Virus record (IMG/VR): IMGVR_UViG_3300034683_000348
Location: 1 to 36,729 of that record
Length of the DNA: 36,729 nt
Direction: 5' to 3' (one strand)
DNA from: a virus
Shown here: one piece after another, positions 1,013 through 35,018 of the stretch
Layout of the letters: each line of letters opens with the position of its first letter
How positions within the stretch are numbered: position 1 is the stretch's first letter
Translations under genes and position numbers: made by a program
Notes under the pieces: model-generated
Database searches by the model: none
What the model saw: the letters and a program-made list of their open reading frames with translations, nothing else
Told to the model about the DNA's origin: nothing

Positions 1013-1894
1013 TCATTGAAATTCCACGCAGGCTTCGGCTGGGACCCGCTCTTTCCGGCCGGCCTTCTCGCGCGGATCTTTAGCATCAAATCGGCTCCAA
1101 TCATCACATCCGACGCCCCATTGTCTGAGCACATAGGGATGGTCAGGATGGGTGCAGCACGGTTGTAGTCCTTTCCAGGTCTGATACCAACAGGTCCCGC
1201 ACACCCTGTCTTCAGCCACGATGACAGACTCCTCCGGCATCCGGCAGTGAATCCGATAGTCGCACCACCGGCATTCCATGGTTTCAGGATCTTCAAAGGC
1301 TCTCTCAGGTATTTTGTTCGCCGTGATGATTCGATAAGCGCGTTCATGTAGGGCCTCGAAGTCCGGCTCTACGAAGTGAATCCTCTCGCTATATATCTCG
1401 GACGTGTCCTTGCAGTAGATAACCACCAGGGCCCTCTCCAGTCGGCCATAGCCCATATAACATTGCACCTGGCAGTAATATGTTGGGGAGACCTGACGCA
1501 CGCCGAATTTCCGGAAGGAATCGAACCGCTTTCGGTTGGCGCTTTTGCATTCCAGGATATGCGGCCTCTTGGTGATGCCATGGATCACGCCGTCGCAATG
1601 GCCGCGAAAGAATCCCTCGTGGGCCTCGAATTCCAACTGTTCTCCATCCACTCGATAGCCGGCTTCGCGAAGGCGCCGAATCAGAATCTCCTCGATGCAG
1701 TCTCCAAGCTCGAATATGAGCTTGGCTCTTCCATCGACCGGAACAGACGTGAACCCTCGAAACCCGTACCACAGGGCCCGGTCGCATGGCCCACCGATGG
1801 CGCTCATCCCAAGATAACGACGGCGTGCTCCGTTTCGCGACGCAGCCTCGTAGATCTCCGCAGCGATTTTGTCCATCATTGGAAGTCGCGCCAT
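1013..1894 (-). CDS. PD-(D/E)XK nuclease with probable Fe-S cluster (Cas4/AddB-like)
   Basis: About 293 residues. The nuclease core is seen as GHCDG (near 98-102), LECKSAN (near 114-120) and YYCQVQCYM (near 139-147), matching the GxxD, ExK and QxxxY motifs of RecB-family exonucleases. A cysteine in GGPCDRALWY near 37 plus CRWCDYRIHC near 208-217 gives the four-cysteine layout that holds a 4Fe-4S cluster in Cas4 and AddB. A second cysteine-rich tail (CGTCWYQ, PCCTHPDHP) follows. The ATG at 1894 overlaps the helicase stop (TGATG) and has GGTGG at good spacing; an ATG at 1900 is the alternative. In this operon it probably makes 3' overhangs for the Sak4/DUF669 recombination proteins. The exact polarity is inference. 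Confidence 0.85.
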   Translation of the reverse strand: MARLPMMDKIAAEIYEAASRNGARRRYLGMSAIGGPCDRALWYGFRGFTSVPVDGRAKLIFELGDCIEEILIRRLREAGYRVDGEQLEFEAHEGFFRGHCDGVIHGITKRPHILECKSANRKRFDSFRKFGVRQVSPTYYCQVQCYMGYGRLERALVVIYCKDTSEIYSERIHFVEPDFEALHERAYRIITANKIPERAFEDPETMECRWCDYRIHCRMPEESVIVAEDRVCGTCWYQTWKGLQPCCTHPDHPYVLRQWGVGCDDWSRFDAKDPREKAGRKERVPAEACVEFQ

Positions 1895-3504
1895 CACCAT
1901 TCCACCACGTTGAGATATTTTCCATTTTGTTTGACCCTGACATCAGTCGGGAACGCGAGCTCATCGAAACGCTGGATCGCCTCCTGAATCGTTTCCGGCA
2001 CCGGATTCAGACCTCCGAATCGCCGCCACGCCGCCATGGCTTTTTGTCGGCCATAATTTGAAGCGTTCCCTTCGATGTCCCAGAAGTGATAGAAGACCTT
2101 CGGGAGAAAACCGCCGTTTTTGTCCCTTGCCGATATGATGAGCTTCAACATGGCGTTCCCGGCTCGACTGATGTGGTAGCGCGGCGTCACGGACAGCACA
2201 TCCATGGACCACGGACCGAAGTTGATCTCCCGCATCTTCACAGGGGCATTGATCTCGTTCTCAGGTTCAGGTTCCCACAAGTGGCCGCAGTTGGGGCATT
2301 CCATCGTCCCTGGCGGGACAATCTCTCTGCATACCTGGCACGCCTTCATGGGCGGCGTCCTCTGGACGCCGGAGACATTCGGCACCGTCACAGCCGGAGA
2401 ATCTAGATCTCCGTGGCGCCTCATGTTTCCGGAGAGGTCCAGCACCAGCAGATCTTTTTTCCCGGGGTGCGGCCTGAGTCCGCGGCCGACGATCTGGACG
2501 TGCAACCCTGAGCTCTTGGTGGGGCGGCAAAGAAGAATACAGTCCACGCAGGTACAGTCCCATCCTTCCGTCAGGACTCCCACATTGCAAAGGACCTGGA
2601 TTTTCCCGGCGTTGAAATCGGCCAGGATCCGCTCTCGATCTTCCATGGGCATCCGACTGTGGACGCATTCACTCACGAAGCCGGCCTCCAGGAAGGCGTC
2701 CCGCACCCTCTCCGCATGAGAGATGGTGACGCAAAACACCACTACATGGCGTCGTCCTTCGCCATATTCCTGATAGGCATGGACGGCGGAACCCACGTGG
2801 CGGTCCCGGCTCATCAGTTCTGAAAGATCGCCCAGGTTCCAATCTCCTCCACTGGTGCGGACGGCTTTCAATTCGTTGTCGATGTTCTCCGCTTCTTTCG
2901 CTCGAATGGGAACGAGCCATCCATCGGACTGAAGCATGGACATGGGAGCCGAATAGTGGAGCTTGCCGAACCAGTTCTCCGCTCCCTTCCTGCACTTGTT
3001 CCCATAGATGTAGCCATGGCCGAGCCGATATGGCGTGGCCGTCACTCCGAGCACACGCAATTGCTCGTAGTAGGACTCCATCTTCAAAAGAAGCGTTCGG
3101 TATTGAGACTTGACGTTCCTGGGAGGCATCCTGTGTGCTTCATCAATGATCACGAGATGGAACGGTGGGCACTCATTCAGCCGATTCACGACGGTCTGGA
3201 CGCTCCCTATGACCACAGGCTGCATGAGGTCTGCCTTTGCGTCCACGCTGGCGCATGCGACCCCGATGGGAGCTTTCGGCCAAACCCGGCGGAGCTTGTC
3301 CGCGGCTTGCTCGATGAGCTCTTTTCGGTGGGCCAGGACCAGAATCCGCATGCGAAACTCCTCAAGCCACCTCCGGATGAGATGGCTGAAGATGATGGTT
3401 TTTCCGGCTCCCGTGCTCAATTGAAGCAGGATGTAGCGGTCAACCATGGAGGCGGCAACGATGGTCTCGATGGCCGCCTCCTGGTAGGGTCTAAGAACGA
3501 TCAT
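1894..3504 (-). CDS. Superfamily II DEAH-type helicase with C-terminal zinc finger
   Basis: A 536-residue ATP-dependent helicase or translocase of the RecG/UvrB/Hef-like DEXD class. The motifs appear in order: RPYQ at the N-terminus (Q-motif-like), STGAGKT at 30-36 (Walker A), DEAH at 121-124 (Walker B), TATP at 155-158 and QIVGRGLRP at 337-345 (motif VI, arginine fingers). A CxxC-CxxC finger (389, 392, 403, 406) follows the helicase core, and a roughly 120-residue tail of unknown fold ends the protein. I chose the ATG at 3504 because it overlaps the DUF669 stop as ATGA. Extending the frame further upstream only reads through DUF669 out of frame. It probably unwinds DNA during phage replication or recombination with the adjacent nuclease and ssDNA-binding proteins. 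Confidence 0.93.
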   Translation of the reverse strand: MIVLRPYQEAAIETIVAASMVDRYILLQLSTGAGKTIIFSHLIRRWLEEFRMRILVLAHRKELIEQAADKLRRVWPKAPIGVACASVDAKADLMQPVVIGSVQTVVNRLNECPPFHLVIIDEAHRMPPRNVKSQYRTLLLKMESYYEQLRVLGVTATPYRLGHGYIYGNKCRKGAENWFGKLHYSAPMSMLQSDGWLVPIRAKEAENIDNELKAVRTSGGDWNLGDLSELMSRDRHVGSAVHAYQEYGEGRRHVVVFCVTISHAERVRDAFLEAGFVSECVHSRMPMEDRERILADFNAGKIQVLCNVGVLTEGWDCTCVDCILLCRPTKSSGLHVQIVGRGLRPHPGKKDLLVLDLSGNMRRHGDLDSPAVTVPNVSGVQRTPPMKACQVCREIVPPGTMECPNCGHLWEPEPENEINAPVKMREINFGPWSMDVLSVTPRYHISRAGNAMLKLIISARDKNGGFLPKVFYHFWDIEGNASNYGRQKAMAAWRRFGGLNPVPETIQEAIQRFDELAFPTDVRVKQNGKYLNVVEW

Positions 3505-3983
3505 TGTGCGGCTTCCCAAGGCGGAACAGACTTTCTGGCGGCACTCTGAACCGGCTTCGGCGGAGGCGCAGCATTGACTCTTGCCTGGGCCGGTCTCACC
3601 TCTGCGAACCTCTTGTAGGACGTGATCTTGTTCTTCGGCGAATAGCCTTCCTGCTCTTCGATGGAAACACGGACCGAACACTGGAGACCATGTAGGTCTT
3701 CAGTGTCTCTTATGAAATTTGGGTTTGGGTATCCAACCGCCTCGGCTAACCCCTTGAACCGTTTCAGCGCCACCTCGTTGTTCAGGACGAAATAGTCCCA
3801 GAGCTTTCGGCCGGCGTGAGTCGGTCCGAGCACCTCGTAAGTGAATATGGCCATGGGGTTTCCGGCCTTGGAATGGGTTACTTCCGAGTCCAGCACCCTG
3901 ATGGTGTACTCTCCAGGGGGAATCGGCTCATAGTCGCTACCCTGCGCATCGTAGCTCGACAGGTCAAGATCCACTCGTGCCAT
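3501..3983 (-). CDS. DUF669 family phage protein (ssDNA-binding-like)
   Basis: A 160-residue protein with the DUF669 signature: a DLSxYDA start, PPGEYTIRVLDSEVTHSKAGNPM near 22-44, and LWDYFVLNNEVALKRFKGLAEAVG near 60-83. The C-terminus is disordered and Ala/Pro-rich and ends in WEAAQ. DUF669 proteins usually sit beside phage recombinases and behave like or replace single-strand-binding proteins. An OB-like beta fold plus a short terminal tail fits that view, which is family knowledge rather than something shown here. The ATG has AAGGAGGAAGACC upstream and lies within the end of the Sak4-like gene, so the two are translationally coupled, as is the helicase downstream. Confidence 0.87.
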   Translation of the reverse strand: MARVDLDLSSYDAQGSDYEPIPPGEYTIRVLDSEVTHSKAGNPMAIFTYEVLGPTHAGRKLWDYFVLNNEVALKRFKGLAEAVGYPNPNFIRDTEDLHGLQCSVRVSIEEQEGYSPKNKITSYKRFAEVRPAQARVNAAPPPKPVQSAARKSVPPWEAAQ

Positions 3984-4749
3984 GGTCTTCCTCCTTGCCT
4001 AGAATCTTCCTGTGAATATGGAGCAGGTTGGGCGGCTCAAACAGAGCCAGCTTCCCGCTCCGGTCCTTTCCGGGAAATCGCTCATAGGGGCCCGTGATGA
4101 ACGTCCGGAACTCCATACCGTCGTCGGCTTGGATGTTGGTGAAGTAGAAAACCTCATCGAAAAAACTGGTGAGGAGCTGCCGTAGGCTATTCCCTGTGAC
4201 GTTTGGGCCGACAAAGCGCCGGTTGTTCTCATCCTTGTCCACCAGAGGGAGACATGTGAAGACGACGTTGAAGGCGGTTGCGTCTCGAAATCCCTTGATA
4301 AGTGTCGTCATGAGCGCCTGGTAATCGTCCCAACGGTCAAAAGTTTTCTCTTTCTGTGGATACTTGGCCTTGAAGTGTTTGTTGCAGCGGTCCGAAATCT
4401 CCGTCAGGGAATCAATGAAGACCCACCCGCCGCCATATCTGGTTTGAGCTTCCGGATTTGCGGTCAGATATTCATAAACATCCCGGAAATCATCCAAGCT
4501 CGTGACTTCAAAGCCCTCAACCTTGCCTTCAATCACGAGATCTTGGACGCTCAGGAGTCCCGCTTCGGCGCTCACGACACAGACCGGCGGCTGCTCGGCC
4601 TCCTCGGGTGTGCGCCATGCGCCGGCTTCCAGGTCCCAGGTGTAGCCGAAAAGCGTCTTGATAAGACTCGTCTTGCCGATCCCAGGCGGCCCGATCACAA
4701 GAGCGCAGAACCGATTGACGCTTTCCTTGGAAATGGGTTTGAGCGGCAT
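3964..4749 (-). CDS. Sak4-like RecA-fold ATPase (AAA_24), single-strand annealing/recombination
   Basis: About 261 residues with a Walker A P-loop, GPPGIGKTS, near 20-28 and a Walker B-like WVFIDSLTEI near 107-116. The rest matches the RecA-core-only ATPases annotated as AAA_24 or phage nucleotide-binding protein and typified by Sak4. These promote strand annealing together with an SSB-type partner. Here DUF669 overlaps its end, which fits that partnership. The coding frame begins with ATG at 4755, but GGAGG is only a base or two from that codon and correctly spaced for the ATG at 4749, so I prefer 4749. The preceding gene stops at 4752, giving coupled translation. Confidence 0.85.
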   Translation of the reverse strand: MPLKPISKESVNRFCALVIGPPGIGKTSLIKTLFGYTWDLEAGAWRTPEEAEQPPVCVVSAEAGLLSVQDLVIEGKVEGFEVTSLDDFRDVYEYLTANPEAQTRYGGGWVFIDSLTEISDRCNKHFKAKYPQKEKTFDRWDDYQALMTTLIKGFRDATAFNVVFTCLPLVDKDENNRRFVGPNVTGNSLRQLLTSFFDEVFYFTNIQADDGMEFRTFITGPYERFPGKDRSGKLALFEPPNLLHIHRKILGKEEDHGTSGS

Positions 4750-4751
4750 TG

Positions 4752-5147
4752 TCATTCCTCCAGTGGTTCATAGCTCACCGATGGGGCCCCGTCCTTGACG
4801 GTCATGGCCCATCGCAAGGCGTCTCCCATCTCCGGATCCAGGAGGGCGGCGTTGATGGTCTTCATGCCGTGGGGCTTATATTCAATCTTGAAGATGCCGT
4901 TGAACTTTTGCTCGCCGATATGGGCCCGTATTTGTTCCAGCTTCTCTTGATCCCAACTAACATATTCTCGCCGTTGGATCTTCACCCGATAGCCGGCGGC
5001 CACCAGGTGGGCTGTCTTCGATCCCGGTTCAAAGCTGGCTATCTCTGCCAATCGAGCATTAATCTCTTTCAGTTTCGCCTCCGCCGTGGAGATCTGCGCC
5101 TTCAGTCTGGCACCCTCACGCACCAAATTTTCTACAGGACCATTCAT
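4752..5147 (-). CDS. Conserved phage protein with N-terminal coiled coil
   Basis: A 131-residue protein of unknown function. Residues 8-38 (LVREGARLKAQISTAEAKLK and following) have heptad spacing typical of a coiled coil. The remainder is a compact alpha/beta segment containing AGYRVKIQRREYVSWD and a C-terminal DALRWAMTV. I chose the ATG at 5147 because AAAGGAGCT lies 6-7 bases upstream; a longer frame from 5195 has no ribosome site. It lies between the zinc-ribbon genes and the Sak4-like ATPase, so it may be an accessory factor of the recombination cassette. It has the small size and coiled-coil start seen in Gp157-like accessory proteins, but I do not claim that family. Confidence 0.7.
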   Translation of the reverse strand: MNGPVENLVREGARLKAQISTAEAKLKEINARLAEIASFEPGSKTAHLVAAGYRVKIQRREYVSWDQEKLEQIRAHIGEQKFNGIFKIEYKPHGMKTINAALLDPEMGDALRWAMTVKDGAPSVSYEPLEE

Positions 5148-5169
5148 TGAAGCTCCTTTCATCTGCACC

Positions 5170-5391
5170 TCACGCAGCACCCGCAGCCCGGGCACCGTGG
5201 TCCGGACTCAGCACGAACTTCTCGGAAACACCTCGGACAGTGCTCCTGGTCAGAATCCGGCTGAACGGATTTCCGCAGTGGGGACAATCGATCACGTTCC
5301 AGATCGTGACCCCGTTCTTCTTGGTTCCGAAGACCATGGAACTCTTGATGACTGGATTCTTTATGGACTCGAAGCAGGTCGGGCATACCAT
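5170..5391 (-). CDS. Small zinc-ribbon protein 2
   Basis: A 73-residue protein with CPTC at its start (residues 3-6) and CPHCGNP near 36-42, a four-cysteine zinc ribbon. The middle contains SSMVFGTKKNGVTIWNVIDC, a short beta segment between the knuckles. AAAGGAGACATC immediately precedes the ATG at 5391, which sets the start; an in-frame ATG at 5406 overlaps the ribosome site itself and is unlikely. The C-terminus is Ala/Gly-rich (GARAAGAA). Function unknown. Such mini-ribbons in early phage operons often bind nucleic acid or act as small transcription or host-takeover factors, which is inference. Confidence 0.65.
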   Translation of the reverse strand: MVCPTCFESIKNPVIKSSMVFGTKKNGVTIWNVIDCPHCGNPFSRILTRSTVRGVSEKFVLSPDHGARAAGAA

Positions 5392-5402
5392 GATGTCTCC
5401 TT

Positions 5403-5627
5403 TCACATTGTGCCGGCCGAGGCCCGGTGCATGAGGTTCGAGACGTGGCCGTCTGGGAATTCATCCGGACCCGGAATCGACGGCGTCCGATCCCAGATCA
5501 CCCTTCCGTATTCGTCCCACCTGTAACCGCAGACGTGGCAGGTCATCACCCGGGGCCGGACGGACCGGTTCACCTCCGGGCTGCTCCCGCGGCACCTGGG
5601 ACATGTTCTGTAAATGAGACCGCGCAT
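5403..5627 (-). CDS. Small zinc-ribbon protein 1
   Basis: A 74-residue protein with CPRCRG near residues 9-14 and CHVCGYRWDEYGRVIW near 30-45, again a CxxC...CxxC zinc ribbon. The WDEYGRVIWDR string after the second knuckle is typical of rubredoxin-like or transposase-type ribbons. GGAGG lies 8 bases upstream of the ATG at 5627. The earlier ATG at 5642 overlaps that same ribosome site, so 5627 is preferred. Its stop overlaps the ribosome site of the next ribbon gene, and the two were probably translated as a pair. They share the ribbon layout but little other sequence. Confidence 0.65.
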   Translation of the reverse strand: MRGLIYRTCPRCRGSSPEVNRSVRPRVMTCHVCGYRWDEYGRVIWDRTPSIPGPDEFPDGHVSNLMHRASAGTM

Positions 5628-5673
5628 CTTTTTCGCCTCCATGGTCGTTGACGCAGAAAGCCGCAGCGACGAA

Positions 5674-6375
5674 TCAGTAGATGATCGGAATCTCCGGACC
5701 AGCCTCCTCTTTCAGCCACTTGCCTATATTGATCTTTGTTTGCAGAACCCATTGTTGGCTGCGGGTCATGAGAAGGAAGCACTGTGGTTCATCTCCGCCC
5801 TTCATGCGGAAGACGAAATCCAAGTGAGGTTGACTGATCTCAGGAAATGTCACATAGGGGGCCAACCGAACGGGATTCTTGATGACGGCGTCTCCGACCC
5901 TCGCGACGCCGACCTTTGTTGTCACCACGTTGGATATCCCGTCGTCCTCATAGACCCTGACCGTGCCGTCCTTCAGATTACCTAGGACCTTGATGAGATT
6001 TTCCTTGTCCGAGGTGTATTCGAAGGCGGCCTGGATGTACGGGATGAACTCGCTGACGGGCATCCACTGGCCGAAATGATGCAGTTCCTCCATTTCAGCC
6101 ACTGCGAACGTTTGTCGTTGCATGAATGGGCCGCTCACCCGGGTGGTGAGAGAGACCTTGTTGTGATGTTGGACGTGAAGGAACACTCTCACCCTTGGGA
6201 AATCAGACACGCCTTTGATGTAGTCCACCAGACCGTTCAAAGTGGTGGTTCTGACTGCATGGACCTCCGGCTCCAAAACAGGGTGGAGTTCTCGGGTCGA
6301 GTAGATGCGGCCTTCAACCTCTTTGAGCTCCCCGTTGGAGATCTCGATGATCTTCTGGATTGCTTGAGCAATCAT
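5674..6375 (-). CDS. Conserved phage protein, 233 residues, function unknown
   Basis: I recognise no catalytic motif. The N-terminus (MIAQAIQKIIEISNGELKEV) is helical. The body is alternating alpha/beta, with TLNGLVDYIKGV and VSEFIPYIQAAFEYTSDKEN as likely helices, followed by a beta-rich C-terminal half with KNPVRLAPYVTFPEISQPHL. There are no cysteines in pairs, no signal peptide and no membrane segment. The ATG at 6375 overlaps the stop of the preceding gene as ATGA, so the two are coupled. Proteins with this layout are common in early siphophage operons next to Sak4/DUF669 modules; their role is not known to me. Confidence 0.7.
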   Translation of the reverse strand: MIAQAIQKIIEISNGELKEVEGRIYSTRELHPVLEPEVHAVRTTTLNGLVDYIKGVSDFPRVRVFLHVQHHNKVSLTTRVSGPFMQRQTFAVAEMEELHHFGQWMPVSEFIPYIQAAFEYTSDKENLIKVLGNLKDGTVRVYEDDGISNVVTTKVGVARVGDAVIKNPVRLAPYVTFPEISQPHLDFVFRMKGGDEPQCFLLMTRSQQWVLQTKINIGKWLKEEAGPEIPIIY

Positions 6376-6710
6376 CTTTCTCCTCCCCTGAGCACGGTCA
6401 GTTCTCCGGTATCATCGACGGGAATGTTCTTGGTCGGCTCGACGGCCACGGCACGTCCCTTTTCCGTGCCGATATAGATATGGGTCGGCACGTGATCGTA
6501 AGGCGCCAATTTGCTGGTGGCCTGGATTTCGACGTTCGCAAAGTCCCGGTCCTCGTTGGGTTTGATCTTGACCGTCAGGGTGACGCTGCGGACCAGGTCG
6601 GGCCTCGTGTTGGGATCCAGGATGTTCTCCAACACCTTCTGGAGCTCATCGTCGAATCGCTCAACGGCCGCGCCTTTCCCAAGATTTGCCAATGACAGCC
6701 TCTCTTCCAT
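6372..6710 (-). CDS. First gene of the leftward operon, conserved phage protein
   Basis: A 112-residue protein beginning MEERLSLANLGKGAAVERFD. It has a helical first third containing FDDELQKVLENILDPNTRPD and a beta-rich centre, RSVTLTVKIKPNEDRDFANV. I chose the ATG at 6710 because GGGAGG lies 5 bases upstream; the same frame is open back to 6965 but that part is Pro/Gly/Arg-rich, starts upstream of the predicted transcript start and is unlikely to be coding. It is the first product of the leftward early promoter and is coupled by ATGA to the next gene. Function unknown. Its position suggests an early-acting replication or regulatory role, which is inference. Confidence 0.75.
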   Translation of the reverse strand: MEERLSLANLGKGAAVERFDDELQKVLENILDPNTRPDLVRSVTLTVKIKPNEDRDFANVEIQATSKLAPYDHVPTHIYIGTEKGRAVAVEPTKNIPVDDTGELTVLRGGER

Positions 6711-6943
6711 TTTTCCCTCCCTTTCCGTTGCCTGGTTCCATTCGCCGGCCATCGGCTCATTAAGCCCGCAGGCGCCTGTGCCGGGTTGATGGGTTCTCTC
6801 ATTCCGACCCGTCGGCGCCGTCTCTTCCCGCGGCCGCCGCCTTTTCCGGGCCGGGCCCCCGTTGCCGCCTCCACCCGGAGACGCCGTGCAAGGCGAGGTG
6901 CCCGCCTCCGTCCCCGTCACCAACGTCCCAGGTGGTTGGGGGT

Positions 6944-6972
6944 AGTATTGCGCATGCGCAACCAACAGTCAA
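6944..6972 (-). promoter_or_regulatory. Predicted leftward early promoter
   Basis: On the minus strand, TTGACT (6972-6967) and AATACT (6949-6944) are separated by 17 bases, a good -35/-10 pair for a housekeeping sigma factor. The predicted transcript start is near 6937. The perfect palindrome at 6948-6961 lies between and partly over the boxes, so a bound repressor would block polymerase. It should drive the recombination/replication operon that starts at 6710. Confidence 0.65.
6948..6961. promoter_or_regulatory. Operator O1, perfect 14-bp palindrome
   Basis: TTGCGCATGCGCAA reads identically on both strands. It sits between the -35 and -10 of the leftward promoter, in the same relative place as O3 in the rightward promoter. 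It is the probable highest-symmetry binding site for the adjacent XRE-family protein. Confidence 0.7.
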
Positions 6973-6992
6973 GGCAAAAGTGCGTAGCAAAG

Positions 6993-7012
6993 TTGCGTGT
7001 TCGCATGCGCAC
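6993..7012. promoter_or_regulatory. Operator O2, two overlapping imperfect sites
   Basis: TTGCGTGTTCGCAT (6993-7006) and GTTCGCATGCGCAC (6999-7012) both fit the TTGCG-N4-CGCAA pattern with mismatches and overlap by eight bases. They lie between the two promoters. A wider inverted repeat, AAAGTGCG (6977-6984) with CGCACTTT (7008-7015), encloses the second site. Confidence 0.5.
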
Positions 7013-7019
7013 TTTCTTG

Positions 7020-7048
7020 TTGACTAGGAGGTGCGCATACGCAATTAT
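7020..7048 (+). promoter_or_regulatory. Predicted rightward promoter for the Cro/cI-like gene
   Basis: TTGACT (7020-7025) and AATTAT (7043-7048) are 17 bases apart. The predicted start of transcription is at about 7054-7056, only a few bases before the ATG at 7058, so the mRNA would be leaderless or nearly so, as with lambda cI from PRM. Operator O3 lies between the boxes. AAGGG at 7051-7055 could serve as a weak ribosome site only if transcription started further upstream. Confidence 0.6.
7031..7044. promoter_or_regulatory. Operator O3 inside the rightward promoter
   Basis: GTGCGCATACGCAA matches the O1 palindrome with two or three changes. It lies between the -35 and -10 boxes of the promoter that transcribes the XRE-family gene, so binding would give autoregulation. 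Confidence 0.65.
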
Positions 7049-7057
7049 TAAAGGGCC

Positions 7058-7279
7058 ATGAAGCTGAAGATCTACATGACGAAAAAAGAGATGTCGCTCG
7101 TTGAGTTGGGGCGTTTGTCGGGGGTGTCTCCATCCATCATCTCCAGATATTTGAGAGGCCTCCGAACCATGTCTGCCGAAAACGCCGCCCGCATCAGCGC
7201 CGCTACCGGTGGAGAGGTGACGGTGGAGGAGCTTCTGTTTCCAGAGGGCCTGCCGGAGGGGGCCCGCATGGCGTCGTGA
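7058..7279 (+). CDS. XRE-family HTH regulator (Cro/cI-like)
   Basis: A 73-residue single-domain DNA-binding protein. MSLVELGRLSGVSPSIISRY (12-31) is a helix-turn-helix, with the recognition helix SPSIISRYLRG, followed by AENAARISAATGGEVTVEEL, the usual closing helices of the family. There is no C-terminal dimerisation or RecA-cleavage domain, so it resembles Cro more than a full-length cI. The gene begins a few bases after its predicted -10 box, so its transcript is probably leaderless. The flanking palindromes are the likely operators for both divergent promoters, making this the switch protein. Whether it acts as lysogenic repressor or as a lytic Cro is not decided by sequence. Confidence 0.88.
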   Translation: MKLKIYMTKKEMSLVELGRLSGVSPSIISRYLRGLRTMSAENAARISAATGGEVTVEELLFPEGLPEGARMAS

Positions 7280-7339: not shown

Positions 7340-7972
7340 ATGCCTGAGGCCCGTTCCCTTTCCGGATCCCACCAGCTCAAGGACTTCTTTCGGTCCGTCC
7401 GCTACCCCCAGGCGAAGCTCGGGGCGGACCTTCGCATCTCCCAGGCACTCGTCAACAAGATACTTCAGGGGCACACGGATCCGAGTCCTGCCCTGGAAGC
7501 TGGCCTCTACGCCAAGGCCCGGGAGCTGGGCTACGACGGCCCGGTTCCGGAAACCCTCAAGGAATGCCCCGTGTGCGGCAGGATCGTGGAAAACGACGGA
7601 AACGGAGCCTGCTGTAACGACTGCAAGGGTCTCCGGCAGCCGGCGGAAGGCGCCCCCAGGGTGGCCGCCCAAGAGGAACGGCCGTGCCGCCGGTGCGGAA
7701 AGCCCGTGGTCCCGTACCGCCACGGAGCCGTCCTGGTGAAGACCGTCTGCAAGGCGTGTCTCTTCAAGTCCACGGCCGCCAGGCGGACAATTCGCGGCCT
7801 ATCTCAGGACGACGTTACCATCTTGGCCGTAGATCTGAGGGAGCTTGGTCTCGAAGACCAAGCTCCTCGAATTCGTACATGGTTGGGGAAAGAAGCTCAG
7901 CGGAACCTCCGTTCCATGGAGGCCCAGATCGTATTTTGTATCCTGGAGAAGATGCGTGAAACCGATGGCTGA
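7340..7972 (+). CDS. HTH protein with two zinc-knuckle motifs
   Basis: A 210-residue protein. Residues 12-60 (LKDFFRSVRYPQAKLGADLR and SQALVNKILQG) look like an XRE-type helix-turn-helix. They are followed by CPVCGRIVENDGNGACCNDC near 76-95 and CRRCGKPV...VCKAC near 116-140, each able to bind zinc. A helical C-terminus contains LGLEDQAPRIRTWLGKEAQR. GGAGGTGATCG gives a strong ribosome site. It overlaps the start of the primase-polymerase gene, so it probably belongs to the replication operon. It may be an origin-binding or loading protein or a transcription regulator; both are inference. Confidence 0.7.
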   Translation: MPEARSLSGSHQLKDFFRSVRYPQAKLGADLRISQALVNKILQGHTDPSPALEAGLYAKARELGYDGPVPETLKECPVCGRIVENDGNGACCNDCKGLRQPAEGAPRVAAQEERPCRRCGKPVVPYRHGAVLVKTVCKACLFKSTAARRTIRGLSQDDVTILAVDLRELGLEDQAPRIRTWLGKEAQRNLRSMEAQIVFCILEKMRETDG

Positions 7973-10040
7973 ATCCGTCTCAGCAACCGCCAACGGCACA
8001 CTGGACGCCGCCCTGGAATACGTGGACAGGGACTTTTCGGTTATTCCAGTAGATAGGAACACGAAACGCCCCTTCTTTCCGTGGGCCGAGTTCCAGAAGC
8101 GGCGACCGACCAGGAGCGAAGTGGAGGCATGGTGGGCCAAACACCAAGACGCCAACGTGGCCATCGTCTGCGGGGCGATATCCGGGATCTACTGCGTGGA
8201 CGGCGACGGAGAAGCCGGCAAGCGATGGATCCAGGACCACCTTCCGCCAACCACCGTCTATTCCATCACGTCCCGCGGCATCCACGCCATCTATCGCGTC
8301 CCACAAAACGCGATGATCCGAAACCGCGTCCGGCTGGCTCCCGAGGTGGATATTCGCGGCGAGGGAGGATACTTCGTGGCGCCTCCTTCCATCCACCAAT
8401 CGGGCCATCGGTACGAATGGCGATTCCTCGGAGGCGGATGGGACGACATCCCGGAATACGCGCCTCCGGATCTCACGGGAAACCTCAATCTTGATCTTTC
8501 TAATGTCCAAGTCACTCCCCTTTCGAGGTTCCAGGGAGTGGCCGAGGGAGAACGAAACGACACCCTGGCGCGGCTCGTCGGAAGATGGTGCGGCAAGGGA
8601 CTCGATCCGGACGAGATATTCGAGCTGGCACTCGCATGGAACGACAAGAACCGGCCGCCGCTCCCACAGTTCGAAGTGCGCCGGACCGTACAGTCAATCC
8701 TCAGAACCCACCAGCGCAATCACTCGGCGGTAGAAATCCGCATCCCAGGTCCACACGAGCAGTCGATCCCGAAGGAGATCCTCACACCAGGAGGGCTCAT
8801 TCAAGCCATGGGGGATTATATCGAGGCATCCAGCCCGGTGTCCCATCCCGCCTTCAACGTCCTGGCCTCCACCATTACCCTGGGAGCCGTGGCCGGTCAG
8901 AAGATCCAGTCTGAAAGTGGGCTTCGGACCAACATCTATGGAATCGGTCTCGCCTATTCGGGCGTCGGAAAGAACGGTCCGCACGGGACAATCCCGAGCA
9001 TGCTGATGCGGTCCAGGGCCCACGAAATCCTGGGCCCCAACACGCTCACGAGCGAAGCAGCCCTCCTCAAACGCCTGTCACAGAAGACGCGAGAAAACCA
9101 ACTGTGCTTCCTGGATGAAATCGCGTCCATCACGAAAGCCCTCAAGAACCCAAACAGCCCGCTCGTCGGGATTCCGGCGCTTCTCATGCAGTTGTGGTCC
9201 GGGACGGACAGAAGCTTTCTAAAGACATACGCCTCCGGCGACGAAATCGTGGTGCGGTGGCACCACCTGGCATTCTACGGCACTAGCGCGCCGGAGGCCT
9301 TCTGGGGATCCATCACCCACAGCGAGGTTGCTGACGGTTTCCTAGCGAGAGTCATCATCTTTGACATCCGCGATGACGCTCCCAAACCCAAGATGCGCGT
9401 CGGATTCAGCGTCCCGCAAAGCCTCGTGGACGCGATCGACGAGATCTACACCATGCCCGTCGAAACCACGGGGGGAAACCTCGAGGCCGTGCCACGGCCT
9501 CACGTCGTTCGCCTGACCGACGATGCCGCGAGGATCCTGGAAGAGTTCGCGGATCACTACCACCAGGAGAAAAACCGCCACAAGACGTCTCCGGACGGAC
9601 GGGCCGCCATCTACGGCCGCGCCGCTGAAAACGCCTGGAAACTGGCGATGGTGCACGCGCTCTCCATATACGGGCCCAAGGTCGTGGGCGCCGGAATCGG
9701 CCGTGAGTCCATGGAATGGGCAACCAAGATCATCCAATGGAGCGTAGAAAACACCGTCCGGAGCGTCCAGCTCAACGTGGCGGTCAATGAATGGCACGCA
9801 TGGGAGCAGAAGATCCTCCGCCTGCTGGAGGAGAAGGTCAAGAACAAGAAGAAGCCGGGATTGACCAGGAGGGAGATCCTAAAGTCCATCTGGGGACTAT
9901 CGGCCCGGGTCTTCGACCAGTTAATCGAAACCATGCTCTTGTCCGGGCGCCTGGCCAAGGTTGTCCATCAGCCCAAGAGCGGACCCGCGACCACCTTGTA
10001 CTGTCTCCGGAAGGAGGAGGAACCCGCCGATGAACCATGA
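7956..10040 (+). CDS. Bifunctional primase-polymerase / DUF3987-type helicase-like protein
   Basis: About 694 residues. The N-terminal AEP (prim-pol) domain shows VDGDG (81-85, metal-binding acidic pair), TSRGIHAIYR (105-114) and DIRGEGGYFVAPPS (132-145), the catalytic motif order of this family. A helical primase C-terminal segment with GERNDTLARLVGRW follows. The second half resembles DUF3987 or superfamily-3-like ATPases, with SGVGKNGPH (335-343) at the Walker A position and FLDE (385-388) as Walker B. The P-loop has Asn where Ser/Thr is usual. I chose the GTG at 7956 because GGAGA is ideally spaced; ATG at 7965 is the alternative. It should prime and possibly unwind phage DNA at the repeat cluster that starts inside its last codons. 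Confidence 0.9.
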   Translation: MKPMAESVSATANGTLDAALEYVDRDFSVIPVDRNTKRPFFPWAEFQKRRPTRSEVEAWWAKHQDANVAIVCGAISGIYCVDGDGEAGKRWIQDHLPPTTVYSITSRGIHAIYRVPQNAMIRNRVRLAPEVDIRGEGGYFVAPPSIHQSGHRYEWRFLGGGWDDIPEYAPPDLTGNLNLDLSNVQVTPLSRFQGVAEGERNDTLARLVGRWCGKGLDPDEIFELALAWNDKNRPPLPQFEVRRTVQSILRTHQRNHSAVEIRIPGPHEQSIPKEILTPGGLIQAMGDYIEASSPVSHPAFNVLASTITLGAVAGQKIQSESGLRTNIYGIGLAYSGVGKNGPHGTIPSMLMRSRAHEILGPNTLTSEAALLKRLSQKTRENQLCFLDEIASITKALKNPNSPLVGIPALLMQLWSGTDRSFLKTYASGDEIVVRWHHLAFYGTSAPEAFWGSITHSEVADGFLARVIIFDIRDDAPKPKMRVGFSVPQSLVDAIDEIYTMPVETTGGNLEAVPRPHVVRLTDDAARILEEFADHYHQEKNRHKTSPDGRAAIYGRAAENAWKLAMVHALSIYGPKVVGAGIGRESMEWATKIIQWSVENTVRSVQLNVAVNEWHAWEQKILRLLEEKVKNKKKPGLTRREILKSIWGLSARVFDQLIETMLLSGRLAKVVHQPKSGPATTLYCLRKEEEPADEP

Positions 10041-10052
10041 GAACCTGCCGAG

Positions 10053-10082
10053 AACCTGCCGAGGTTTTCATCGGCGGGTTTT
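10053..10082 (+). terminator. Possible Rho-independent terminator after the primase gene
   Basis: Iterons at 10053-10062 and 10071-10080 pair to form a 10-base stem (one G-U pair) with an 8-base loop, followed by TTTT (10079-10082). It lies 12 bases past the primase stop. The same bases belong to the iteron array, so termination may be a secondary effect. Confidence 0.4.
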
Positions 10083-10137
10083 CTCGATGAAATCATTACG
10101 AAAAACAGAAGAAGGCAACCCGCCGATGGGGGGTAGA

Positions 10138-10168
10138 CACAAAATTTTGTGGATTTTTGGGTATACCC
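10138..10168. repeat. Two perfect palindromes inside the candidate origin
   Basis: CACAAAATTTTGTG (10138-10151) and GGGTATACCC (10159-10168) are both exact palindromes, seven bases apart. They sit between the two widely spaced opposed iterons at 10117 and 10173. They may be separate protein-binding sites or extrudable elements of the origin core. Confidence 0.6.
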
Positions 10169-10275
10169 TACATCGGCAGGTTGTTTTTTTATTTTTTTAT
10201 AAGTAATTTCAAATAGAAAACCCGCCGAGGATTCTATCGGCACGTTCTCGGCAAGTTCCCCTTGGAGATTCTTAC

Positions 10276-10291
10276 GGCGTAACGCATAGCG
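10276..10291 (+). repeat. 16-bp upstream repeat, copy 1
   Basis: GGCGTAACGCATAGCG lies 11 bases before the ATG at 10303. It matches the copy at 10772-10787 at 14 of 16 positions. A shorter match, GCGTAACGC, is at 11509-11517, ahead of the methyltransferase gene. All three lie just upstream of genes, so a shared regulatory site is possible. Confidence 0.5.
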
Positions 10292-10302
10292 AAAGAGTGC
10301 CC

Positions 10303-10695
10303 ATGACACCAACGCAACGTACCATGCAGGAACTCCGACGACTCGGAAGACGCTGTGCCGTAGTCGAAAAGTGGAACAGCTTCGCTCGGCGTGAAGGCGA
10401 TGGTCCTCCAGGAATCCGCCAGGATCTCTTCGGGATCATCGACGTCCTAGCCCTGGACCCGGAGCGTGGTGTCGTCGGCGTCCAATGCTGCGGCGGCTCA
10501 GGCTTCCAAGACCATTGGCGCAAACTCACGGAAGAACATGCTCAGGAAACCATGGACTGGCTCTCCACGCCGGGAACAGTCCTGGAGCTCTGGGCCTGGC
10601 GGAAGGTTAAAGCCAAGCGCGGCGGCAAGGCCATGGTCTGGCGGCCTCGCATCGTCGAGGTCACACTGAAAGATGTGGTGGGAGCTGGGGTGTAG
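10303..10695 (+). CDS. Nuclease-like phage protein (PD-(D/E)XK/resolvase-like)
   Basis: About 130 residues. The stretch GIRQDLFGIIDVLALDPERG near 37-56 followed by VVGVQCC resembles a phage family related to Holliday-junction resolvase or VRR-type nucleases, in which an Asp in DLFGxxD is a metal ligand. The second-strand motif here is VQC rather than the ExK of active nucleases, so activity is uncertain. AAAGAG five bases upstream supports ATG at 10303; a GTG at 10297 is also possible. It directly follows the candidate origin, so it may process replication or recombination intermediates. The family call is moderate. Confidence 0.6.
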   Translation: MTPTQRTMQELRRLGRRCAVVEKWNSFARREGDGPPGIRQDLFGIIDVLALDPERGVVGVQCCGGSGFQDHWRKLTEEHAQETMDWLSTPGTVLELWAWRKVKAKRGGKAMVWRPRIVEVTLKDVVGAGV

Positions 10696-10725
10696 GGCGG
10701 GACACGCCCGAATGGTCCGTAACTC

Positions 10726-32403: not shown

Positions 32404-34662
32404 ATGGAGACGCAACGCCCCCCCATTGATCTGGACCTGCACCAACCCCTGCCGGCATCGCTGGATTTCCGGTTTGGCGTATCGGTGCCGCTCTCGTCAG
32501 GAGCGCTGTCGGCCGCCTTGCAGCCCGTTATGGCGTCACAAGCCGCGGTCGGGGTGTCCGGAACGGTGGTCGGGGACGCCTCTCCGGTCATGTCGTGGGA
32601 CGCAGCTGAAGGCGCGCAGGGATCATGGGATGCACGGACGACCCAGGCCGTGGCGGACATGACCGGCACCTTTTCGTTTTACGTGACCGGGCTGCTGGAC
32701 GTGGATGCGTCTCCCAGTGGCTGGATCCAGGGTTTTTATGGGCCCGCCGGCACTCTGGCGGCCAAAGCAGAGAGCATCGCTCAGTTCCAGGGGCGCTCGA
32801 TCCAGGTGGTGATTGGTTCTGCTGCTCAGGACATGATGGCGCATCCCATGATGGTCGGAAAACAGGGATGCGTTTCGGTGTTTCAAGCAGAAGTTGAGGC
32901 TGCCCCAAGCTGGACCGGCCGGCAGGGAGCCGGTGGATTCTGGGCGTCCGGCCTGCCGGCTCTGGCAGGAATGCACGCTGACGGCGAGTGGGACGCCAAC
33001 GCGTTCCGGGGCCCCGTGGCCGCACCCTGTGTCCCGTTCGCGGGTCCTCGGAGGGTGGTGGCACAACCCGGAATCCCCTGGGATTACGGAGCGCGTTTGC
33101 GGCCTGATACCGTGGAGCGATGGGCAGAAGCCGGATGCGCCGTAAACGATATGGTAGCACGGCACAGGAGCCTGGAACGTTATCCGGTTCGAACTGCGGC
33201 GGTGCACACGGAGGCGTCTCCTGTTTCCGTCGTCGTGGGCGGCCCGTACGTGGCCACGTACCGACGCCATCAGCAGCGTGCGTCTGGCTGGACAGAGGGA
33301 ATCTCTCTGGAAACGGCCCTCCTGGGCCCGTGGGTGCGATTGTGGCGGCGCCGTGCCGTTCCCCGGTTCCCGTGGGACCGCGCGGCCACGGCGGTCGAGA
33401 GGTGCCTTGAAGGCCCGTGGCTGCTCCTGTCCAGGCTGAACCATATCCCTCACCAGTGTCGGCGATCGCTGTGGGAGGACGCACGCCGGGCTCCCTGGAT
33501 ATGGCCTTGGCCTCCGCCGGCTCCCCCGGAGCAGCCGGAACCGGAGCCCTTCATTCCGAACTTGGATTTCGACCTGGGCTGCGTGCTCCCGTCTCCCGTC
33601 TGGACCGGAGCGGATTTTTTCCTGGACATCGAGACTTGCGACCGGGTCAAGCCCCACGGTTGGCTCCCCCCGGTTGCCCCGAGGGTCATTATCGTGATTC
33701 ACACCTTATCCATCGTGACGCTTCCCGACGGAACGCCCATTCCTTGCGACGAGGTGCAGGTGGTGACGGACCTCGACAGCTGGGCGTGGAGATGGTCCGC
33801 GTCCGTGAGGGGGGCGGCTGAGGAACTGGCCCAGACACAGAAGGAAATCGAGCTCACCGTGGACTCCCTGATCTGGCGGGGCATCACGGAATCCTACGAC
33901 GCGGAGCGCCTGTTCGGAGCCGTGGCCGCTCGGGTCGGCGGTCGATCTCTCTCCGCCTATCTTGCCGAGCCGTTCACGGACCCGAGGGCCCGAATCGAAT
34001 CCACGAACCGCACGGCGAACCAGCTGGCTGAAGACGAGCTCTACAACACAGGATGGGCTCTGGACTGGAACACGGTGGATTGGCTGGTACCGGCCGGGGC
34101 CTTTGCCTACGACGCCTTGACCCCCATCGGGGCCGTGAAGCAGATCGCCGAGGCCTGCGGCGCCGTGGTGCAGTCCCATCCCTGGGACACCAGGATCATC
34201 GTCTTGCCGCGGTATCCGGTCTCGGCCTGGGAACTGGACGCCGCCCAGCCGGACGTGACGATCCCGGCGGGAGTCATCACGCGCATGAGCACCCGGTGGC
34301 AGCCAAACGCCCTTTATCGAGGCGTTTGGGTCTTCGGTCGGTCCCAGGGGGTCGGGGTTCGAGTGTATCGGACCGGCACGGACGGGGACCCATACGCCCA
34401 GATGGTGGTGGACCCGCTCGTCACCCACGTGGACGCCGGCAGGGAGCGCGGGCGAAACATCCTTTCCGGATCCGGCAAGCGGGCCGTCATAACGGCCACC
34501 ATGCCCCTGCTTCCCGAAGTGGGACTGATCGTTCCGGGCTCCATCGTGGAGGTGTCAGACACGCCGTCCTGGAAGGCTTACGCCGTGGGCGTCTCCATAT
34601 CGGCCTCCCTCGGCAAGGTCATCCAGACGGTCACACTTGAGCGCCCCTATGAGGTGGCATGA
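32404..34662 (+). CDS. Baseplate hub-like tail protein (752 residues)
   Basis: The N-terminal half (METQRPPIDLDLHQPLPASL and a long stretch with few motifs, rich in Ala, Val, Trp) is unusual. A Pro-rich hinge (WPPPAPPEQPEPEPF, near 375-390) separates it from the C-terminal half, which has VVTDLDSWAWRWSASVRG near 460, QIAEACGAVVQSHPWDTRII and RYPVSAWELDAAQPDVTIPA. This resembles gpP/gp44-like tail hub proteins of Mu-type siphophages, which form the distal tube end. TAGGAG lies upstream. The N-terminal half may be a variable insertion. Confidence 0.7.
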   Translation: METQRPPIDLDLHQPLPASLDFRFGVSVPLSSGALSAALQPVMASQAAVGVSGTVVGDASPVMSWDAAEGAQGSWDARTTQAVADMTGTFSFYVTGLLDVDASPSGWIQGFYGPAGTLAAKAESIAQFQGRSIQVVIGSAAQDMMAHPMMVGKQGCVSVFQAEVEAAPSWTGRQGAGGFWASGLPALAGMHADGEWDANAFRGPVAAPCVPFAGPRRVVAQPGIPWDYGARLRPDTVERWAEAGCAVNDMVARHRSLERYPVRTAAVHTEASPVSVVVGGPYVATYRRHQQRASGWTEGISLETALLGPWVRLWRRRAVPRFPWDRAATAVERCLEGPWLLLSRLNHIPHQCRRSLWEDARRAPWIWPWPPPAPPEQPEPEPFIPNLDFDLGCVLPSPVWTGADFFLDIETCDRVKPHGWLPPVAPRVIIVIHTLSIVTLPDGTPIPCDEVQVVTDLDSWAWRWSASVRGAAEELAQTQKEIELTVDSLIWRGITESYDAERLFGAVAARVGGRSLSAYLAEPFTDPRARIESTNRTANQLAEDELYNTGWALDWNTVDWLVPAGAFAYDALTPIGAVKQIAEACGAVVQSHPWDTRIIVLPRYPVSAWELDAAQPDVTIPAGVITRMSTRWQPNALYRGVWVFGRSQGVGVRVYRTGTDGDPYAQMVVDPLVTHVDAGRERGRNILSGSGKRAVITATMPLLPEVGLIVPGSIVEVSDTPSWKAYAVGVSISASLGKVIQTVTLERPYEVA

Positions 34663-34676
34663 GAAGGAGGAATGCC

Positions 34677-35018
34677 ATGAAGAAGATCATCTTGGCACTG
34701 ATTCTGGCCCTTGTGTTCGCGGGAGCCGCAACAGCCCAGGACGAATCCCAGCCGCAAACTCTTCCGGGCCCGATCCAGGTGGATCTTGGCGAGGGCAACG
34801 GGGCCGTCATTGTCGTTGGCGACGGCAACAGCATCTATCTGCCGCCAACAGATGAACAAGCCTGTGAGCCATCCACTGCCTTCGCGCAGTCTGGCGGTTT
34901 TGTCCTGGTCGTGAACGATCTTGTGATTGAGTCCGAAGGCTTGCAGGTGCCCTTCAGTCGGGTGGTGCTATGGATTGCGGATGATGGGCAAGTGTCCGTC
35001 GTCAGCGCCCGGCAATAA
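34677..35018 (+). CDS. Exported small protein in the tail operon
   Basis: A 113-residue protein with a clear Sec signal peptide: MKKIILALILALVFAGAATA, a basic start, a 15-residue hydrophobic core and an ATA/AxA cleavage site before QDES. The mature part is acidic and beta-rich (IQVDLGEGNGAVIVVGDGNS). GGAGG is 8 bases from ATG 34677, which I prefer over ATG 34659 lying on the previous stop. An exported protein between structural genes is typical of a moron that alters the host envelope, for example superinfection exclusion. That function is not shown here. Confidence 0.7.
   Translation: MKKIILALILALVFAGAATAQDESQPQTLPGPIQVDLGEGNGAVIVVGDGNSIYLPPTDEQACEPSTAFAQSGGFVLVVNDLVIESEGLQVPFSRVVLWIADDGQVSVVSARQ

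Follow-up and report, generated by a model that had tools for sequence, protein, structure and literature searches.

A 218-bp mirrored array of the 10-bp word AACYYGCCGA begins at the stop codon of the primase-polymerase (prim-pol) gene in a 36,729-nucleotide viral sequence (IMG/VR record IMGVR_UViG_3300034683_000348, hereafter the window). The segment is very probably the phage's replication origin, bound by the winged helix of the prim-pol protein itself and used to load two opposed helicase rings. A first-pass annotation had already placed a candidate origin beside this gene; the proposal gains support from the corresponding site of a homologous locus (L016), from the arrays of distant relatives and from the position of the origin of Streptococcus phage Sfi21. 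The assignment draws on the position of the segment, its repeats, its dyad, its A+T tract and the conserved homologous site, together with modeled protein folds, and we infer from these that binding, double-ring loading, melting, priming and bidirectional replication would take place there.

Architecture of the array and its neighboring genes

A pattern scan of the whole 36.7-kb window for AACYYGCCGA returned eight exact matches, all within 10021-10257 and none elsewhere in the window (shuffles, mean 0.39, maximum 2), and no second cluster was present in the window. Nine copies had originally been counted; eight of these are exact, and the ninth, at 10237 on the minus strand (AACGTGCCGA), is a near copy with one mismatch. 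The copies run ++- in a left block and +-- in a right block, with an inner pair in addition (Table 1). The 11-bp spacing and the 8-base loops between opposed copies were as first described, and an 18-bp spacing recurs as well. In keeping with the initial failure to recognize the iteron among described phage origins, a published description of the word was not found, and a literature search on prim-pol proteins with iterons likewise found nothing.

The outer repeat pairs had been noted as inverted near-copies of each other, which understates the symmetry, as the entire segment 10041-10258 is a gapless imperfect palindrome. Across it, 79 of 109 pairs are complementary, with arms of 104 nt each that are 75% complementary, and its score is 52, while none of 40 dinucleotide shuffles exceeded 11. 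Four mirror pairs account for eight of the nine repeats, the copy at 10021 being the sole iteron not within the palindrome. Pairing across the dyad amounts to 37/40 in the repeats and 42/69 in the spacers, the latter against a chance level of 19.3 ± 3.5 (maximum 34) in 20,000 spacer shuffles. Because the spacers are symmetric as well, the dyad points to an old inverted duplication, since which the spacers would have been kept less well than the repeats. As a single strand, the palindrome segment folds with a z of -10.7 relative to shuffles. The two exact palindromes noted inside the array lie close to the dyad centre, and Moraxella phage Mcat11 and L095 have a GGGTATA...ACCC element close to theirs.

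The T/A-rich tract reported inside the array contains the 34-bp stretch with the highest A+T content in the window, and its location adjacent to the repeats is that of the A+T-rich tract of an iteron origin, making it a candidate DNA-unwinding element. No DnaA boxes were found in 9951-10320, which sets the segment apart from DnaA-dependent iteron plasmid origins, and no GATC sites were found in the segment. The cumulative GC-skew minimum that the first-pass annotation had suggested looking for does lie near the array, at 9635, but third-position skew has no clean switch; GC skew is weakly consistent with an origin here.

Table 1 Features of the candidate origin and neighboring genes in the window
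Feature	Position	Strand	Remarks
HTH_3 protein	7058-7279		
Weak HTH/zinc-ribbon protein	7340-7972		
Prim-Pol/PriCT-1/DUF3987 primase-polymerase-helicase gene, presumed initiator	7944-10040	+	Pfam; frame open up to 7845
C-terminal winged-helix domain, presumed iteron-binding	9753-10037	+	AlphaFold H-E-H-H-E-E, mean pLDDT 75
Iteron AACCCGCCGA	10021-10030	+	exact; outside palindrome, within last codons of prim-pol gene
Imperfect palindrome (218 bp, gapless), candidate origin core	10041-10258		dyad centre ~10149.5
Iteron AACCTGCCGA	10042-10051	+	exact; mirror partner 10248-10257
Iteron AACCTGCCGA	10053-10062	+	exact; mirror partner 10237-10246
Iteron AACCCGCCGA	10071-10080	-	exact; mirror partner 10219-10228
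Iteron AACCCGCCGA	10117-10126	+	exact; mirror partner 10173-10182
Palindrome CACAAAATTTTGTG	10138-10151		near dyad centre; read from sequence
Palindrome GGGTATACCC	10159-10168		near centre; read from sequence
Iteron AACCTGCCGA	10173-10182	-	exact; mirror partner 10117-10126
A+T-rich tract, candidate DNA-unwinding element	10181-10217		31/34 A+T
Iteron AACCCGCCGA	10219-10228	+	exact; mirror partner 10071-10080
Iteron AACGTGCCGA	10237-10246	-	one mismatch; mirror partner 10053-10062
Iteron AACTTGCCGA	10248-10257	-	exact; mirror partner 10042-10051
Next gene, 132 aa	10297-10695	+	position of VRR-NUC gene in relatives

The prim-pol product matches three Pfam families (PF09250, E = 3.6e-31; PF08708, E = 9.1e-17; PF13148, E = 5e-11), and its sequence profile also retrieves pRN1 ORF904. 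The predicted fold of the N-terminal part matches the Prim-Pol domains of pRN1 and NrS-1, while many of the best matches to the rest of the protein are MCM-type AAA+ helicases. For the DUF3987 part of the 7845-10040 frame, the fold matches include SsoPfMCM, MCM2-7 and also PriRep1. A published prediction assigns DUF3987 to the helicases of mobile elements (PMC5862659), and judged from the modeled fold it may be an MCM-like motor. The last ~95 residues were modeled by AlphaFold as a winged helix, and Foldseek paired this domain with winged helices of the MarR, ROK, DnaD and PefI types at a probability of ~1, each match being weak by E value (about 1e-2 to 2e-2). It is this predicted winged helix that would give the presumed initiator a DNA-binding domain at its C terminus.

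Downstream of the array, no Pfam domain was found in the product of 10297-10695. It contains motif-like residues (IDVLALD...GVQCC) and may be a diverged VRR-NUC-type nuclease. The genes for the DEAD helicase, DUF669 and AAA_24 proteins form a minus-strand block at 1894-6965 of the window (compare L150, 29257-33014).

The site in relatives and across Prim-Pol loci

A contig 99% identical to the window carries an identical site, and because its 321 bp are invariant it is uninformative about conservation. Scans that used L011 or L016 as a single protein added no viral relatives. The informative comparison is with L016, a 52-kb contig labeled Nitrospinota, whose prim-pol is 42% identical to that of the window and whose C-terminal domain is the closest among those aligned (32%). 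Within 400 bp that span and follow the stop of its prim-pol gene, L016 has seven copies of AACYYGCCGA with at most one mismatch (AATTCGCCGA/AATCCGCCGA), compared to a mean of 0.10 and a maximum of 1 in shuffles. Its outer blocks (6070+/6081+/6099- and 6302+/6320-/6331-, the copy at 6320- being degenerate with two mismatches) mirror the 11-bp and 18-bp spacings of the window. The L016 palindrome reaches a score of 32 (shuffle maximum, 14), with an A+T tract in its right half. Absence of the iterons beside a conserved primase gene had been named as grounds for abandoning the origin assignment; the opposite was found in L016, where both the repeat and its spacing are kept.

More distant relatives have other words at the same place. 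Palindromes exceeding their shuffle maxima accompany GCAGACA in Moraxella phage Mcat11 (32 versus 16), TTCTAATG in Sphingomonas phage Birtae (23 versus 13), TTCACATG in a Spartinivicinus plasmid (16 versus 14) and AGTGTCG in L095 (25 versus 14). Rhizobium and Sinorhizobium phages have GGAATT at the corresponding place, TGTCGCAT is common to L014 and L095, and the words at the prim-pol 3' end of other relatives are GCAGACA, TTCCAAA, TGTGAAA or TATGACA. Several relatives have a comparable A+T tract in the right half of the array, and the segments of several relatives also fold better than shuffles. L014 and L015 carry repeats on both strands without a significant single palindrome. In L017, L097, L099, L100 and L112, no array was found and the next gene follows directly; the arrangement is therefore common but not universal. 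Judging from the sequences of few pairs, the repeat word appears to change together with the prim-pol protein.

In an unbiased scan, the position of the strongest repeat cluster relative to the Prim-Pol stop was scored, locus by locus, in 123 Prim-Pol loci. This cluster starts at -150 to +75 of the stop in 30 of the 123 loci compared to 3.9 expected, and although the loci are partly non-independent (L140 and L141 look close, as do L135 and L144, both with CCGGACA), kinship among them does not explain the excess. Repeat clusters directly 3' of the initiator gene are more frequent than chance allows, and the majority of the 30 stop-adjacent clusters have repeats on both strands. Among the strongest clusters of the survey is that of L107, at the 3' end of the gene, with 11 GGGTCAC repeats (six in one orientation and five in the other) that start at about -36 relative to the prim-pol stop. 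Synechococcus phage Ssp-JY40 (L005, 4600-4900) has nine AACCGAC repeats on both strands ~380-680 bp past the prim-pol stop, from which two short annotated ORFs separate them, and this cluster is perhaps a displaced origin.

Proposed mechanism and alternative readings

In the mechanism that we propose, the C-terminal winged helix of the prim-pol protein would bind the 10-bp iterons, and their mirror order (++- and +-- with the inner pair) would load two MCM-like (DUF3987) AAA+ oligomers head to head. The opposed rings would melt the DNA over the A+T-rich tract; priming of both strands by the Prim-Pol domain would make replication bidirectional.

The segment could instead be an origin read by its structure, as an extruded cruciform or a single-strand stem-loop of the kind proposed for pRN1, with the repeats a by-product of symmetry. 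Such a site would still be an origin and would differ from the iteron-bound one in how it is recognized. We consider this unlikely. It would account for the strong single-strand fold of the segment and the better-than-shuffled folding of several relatives' sites, and an intact stem is required in pRN1 (PMC4234260), but pairing in the window is far more complete in the repeats than in the spacers, the repeats of L014 and L015 lie on both strands without a significant palindrome and a plain stem has no need of direct copies within each arm. As the stem of the window is largely made of iterons, recognition of the repeats and recognition of the structure are separable by mutation.

That the repeats are instead operator sites, at which a regulator acts on the downstream genes and not on replication, seems to us quite improbable. 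Two candidate regulators are encoded nearby (the HTH_3 protein at 7058 and the weak HTH/zinc-ribbon protein at 7340), and dyad sites suit dimeric repressors. Across relatives, however, the array goes with the prim-pol gene; 9700-10700 yielded no sigma-70-like promoter, and the divergent gap at 6965-7058, where a regulator would be expected to act, has no exact copy. The 7340 protein had also been put forward as a possible binder of the array; on the modeled fold, the C-terminal winged helix of the prim-pol is the likelier one.

A reading of the G+C-rich inverted repeats, with the T that trails them, as intrinsic terminators after the prim-pol gene is very improbable. Both inner hairpins are followed by GGCGGGTTTTC, on opposite strands; a terminator-like match is present on the minus strand at 10242-10223, and in P4 too alpha and crr are separated by a terminator. 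Yet two terminator-like matches compare to 0.9 expected, the one in the segment runs against the direction of the flanking genes, nine repeats and 218 bp of mirror order would be left unexplained, and the terminator of pRN1 is dispensable (PMC4234260). A MITE-like mobile inverted-repeat element that landed 3' of the prim-pol gene by chance would fit an inverted duplication that is gapless overall, but is scarcely credible given that L016, at 42% protein identity, keeps repeats and spacing at the same place and that the near-identical contig is the sole member of the viral collection with the exact 21-mer AACCTGCCGAGAACCTGCCGA.

Comparison with known origins

An origin of this kind is already described in P4, SaPI, Sfi21 and pRN1; what is new, as far as we found, is the AACYYGCCGA repeat sequence and the DUF3987 setting. 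The annotated origin of Sfi21 (AF115103) is a 302-bp noncoding element (34487-34784) reported to be active as a replication origin upon infection (PMC6356513). It overlaps the end of the primase gene and follows it, the same position as that of the array in the window, and its GTAACTA repeats form a dyad that encloses an A+T tract (score 27 versus a shuffle maximum of 13; fold z -8.3). The window parallels it in having a noncoding 3' dyad around an A+T tract in the same replication module, as both modules contain Prim-Pol/PriCT-1, DUF669, AAA_24 and DEAD-helicase genes. The gene after the Sfi21 origin has no Pfam match. In Sfi21, the DEAD helicase, DUF669 and AAA_24 genes precede the primase and share its strand; the block in the window is inverted relative to the prim-pol. 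The two differ in their words (GTAACTA and AACYYGCCGA) and in their helicases, which is D5/DUF5906 in a separate annotated frame in Sfi21 and DUF3987 in the window, placing the latter outside the SF3/D5 type.

In P4, the alpha protein is a multifunctional initiator with a C-terminal winged helix (PMC4234260), like the one predicted in the window, and crr, directly 3' of the alpha gene, has short iterons in both orientations (++--+). Unlike the window with its single cluster, P4 has two iteron regions, ori being separate from crr, which itself is built of two direct repeats of 120 bp. The P4 primase is of the Toprim/zinc-ribbon type and not an AEP Prim-Pol. The C-terminal domain of SaPI Rep recognizes repeats directly downstream of its own gene, and that of SCCmec Cch2 binds a putative origin downstream of the operon (PMC7581432). 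As in the window, the short repeats come just after the helicase gene in SaPI and just after the operon in SCCmec, but in SCCmec the primase and helicase are separate proteins and Cch2 binding needed direct, not inverted, repeats. The NrS-1 primase-polymerase has the Prim-Pol fold, as in the window; its 8-nt recognition site occurs just twice, at the genome centre (PMC7102993), and an array of the window's kind is not described there.

In pRN1, a stem-loop of ~100 nt 3' of the prim-pol gene (orf904) is needed for replication and, together with the replication operon, is sufficient for it, provided that the stem is intact; its authors extended the stem-loop origin to Bordetella phages (PMC4234260). 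The element is poorly conserved in sequence but conserved in position. Like pRN1, the window combines an AEP Prim-Pol gene ending in a winged helix (predicted in the window) with a self-complementary noncoding element just 3', whereas pRN1 has an SF3 helicase and, according to its authors, no iteron structure, and the window has DUF3987 and clear iterons.

The pRN-type 'stem-loop' origins and the 'iteron' origins of P4, SaPI and Sfi21 might then be one thing, namely blocks of iterons duplicated in mirror image, onto which two MCM-like (DUF3987) or SF3 helicase rings are loaded head to head, with a word that drifts along with the C-terminal winged helix. We hold this only tentatively; if true, it would be seen most clearly in the pair formed by the window and L016. 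The segment provides a concrete candidate origin for uncultured phages with Prim-Pol/DUF3987 replication proteins, and the suggested placement rule, mirrored short repeats directly 3' of the prim-pol gene, could be used to predict origins in many phages and plasmids. For pRN1, the authors described a stem-loop without iterons and identified no binding motif (PMC4234260), and it is this contrast with the window that makes the mode of recognition testable.
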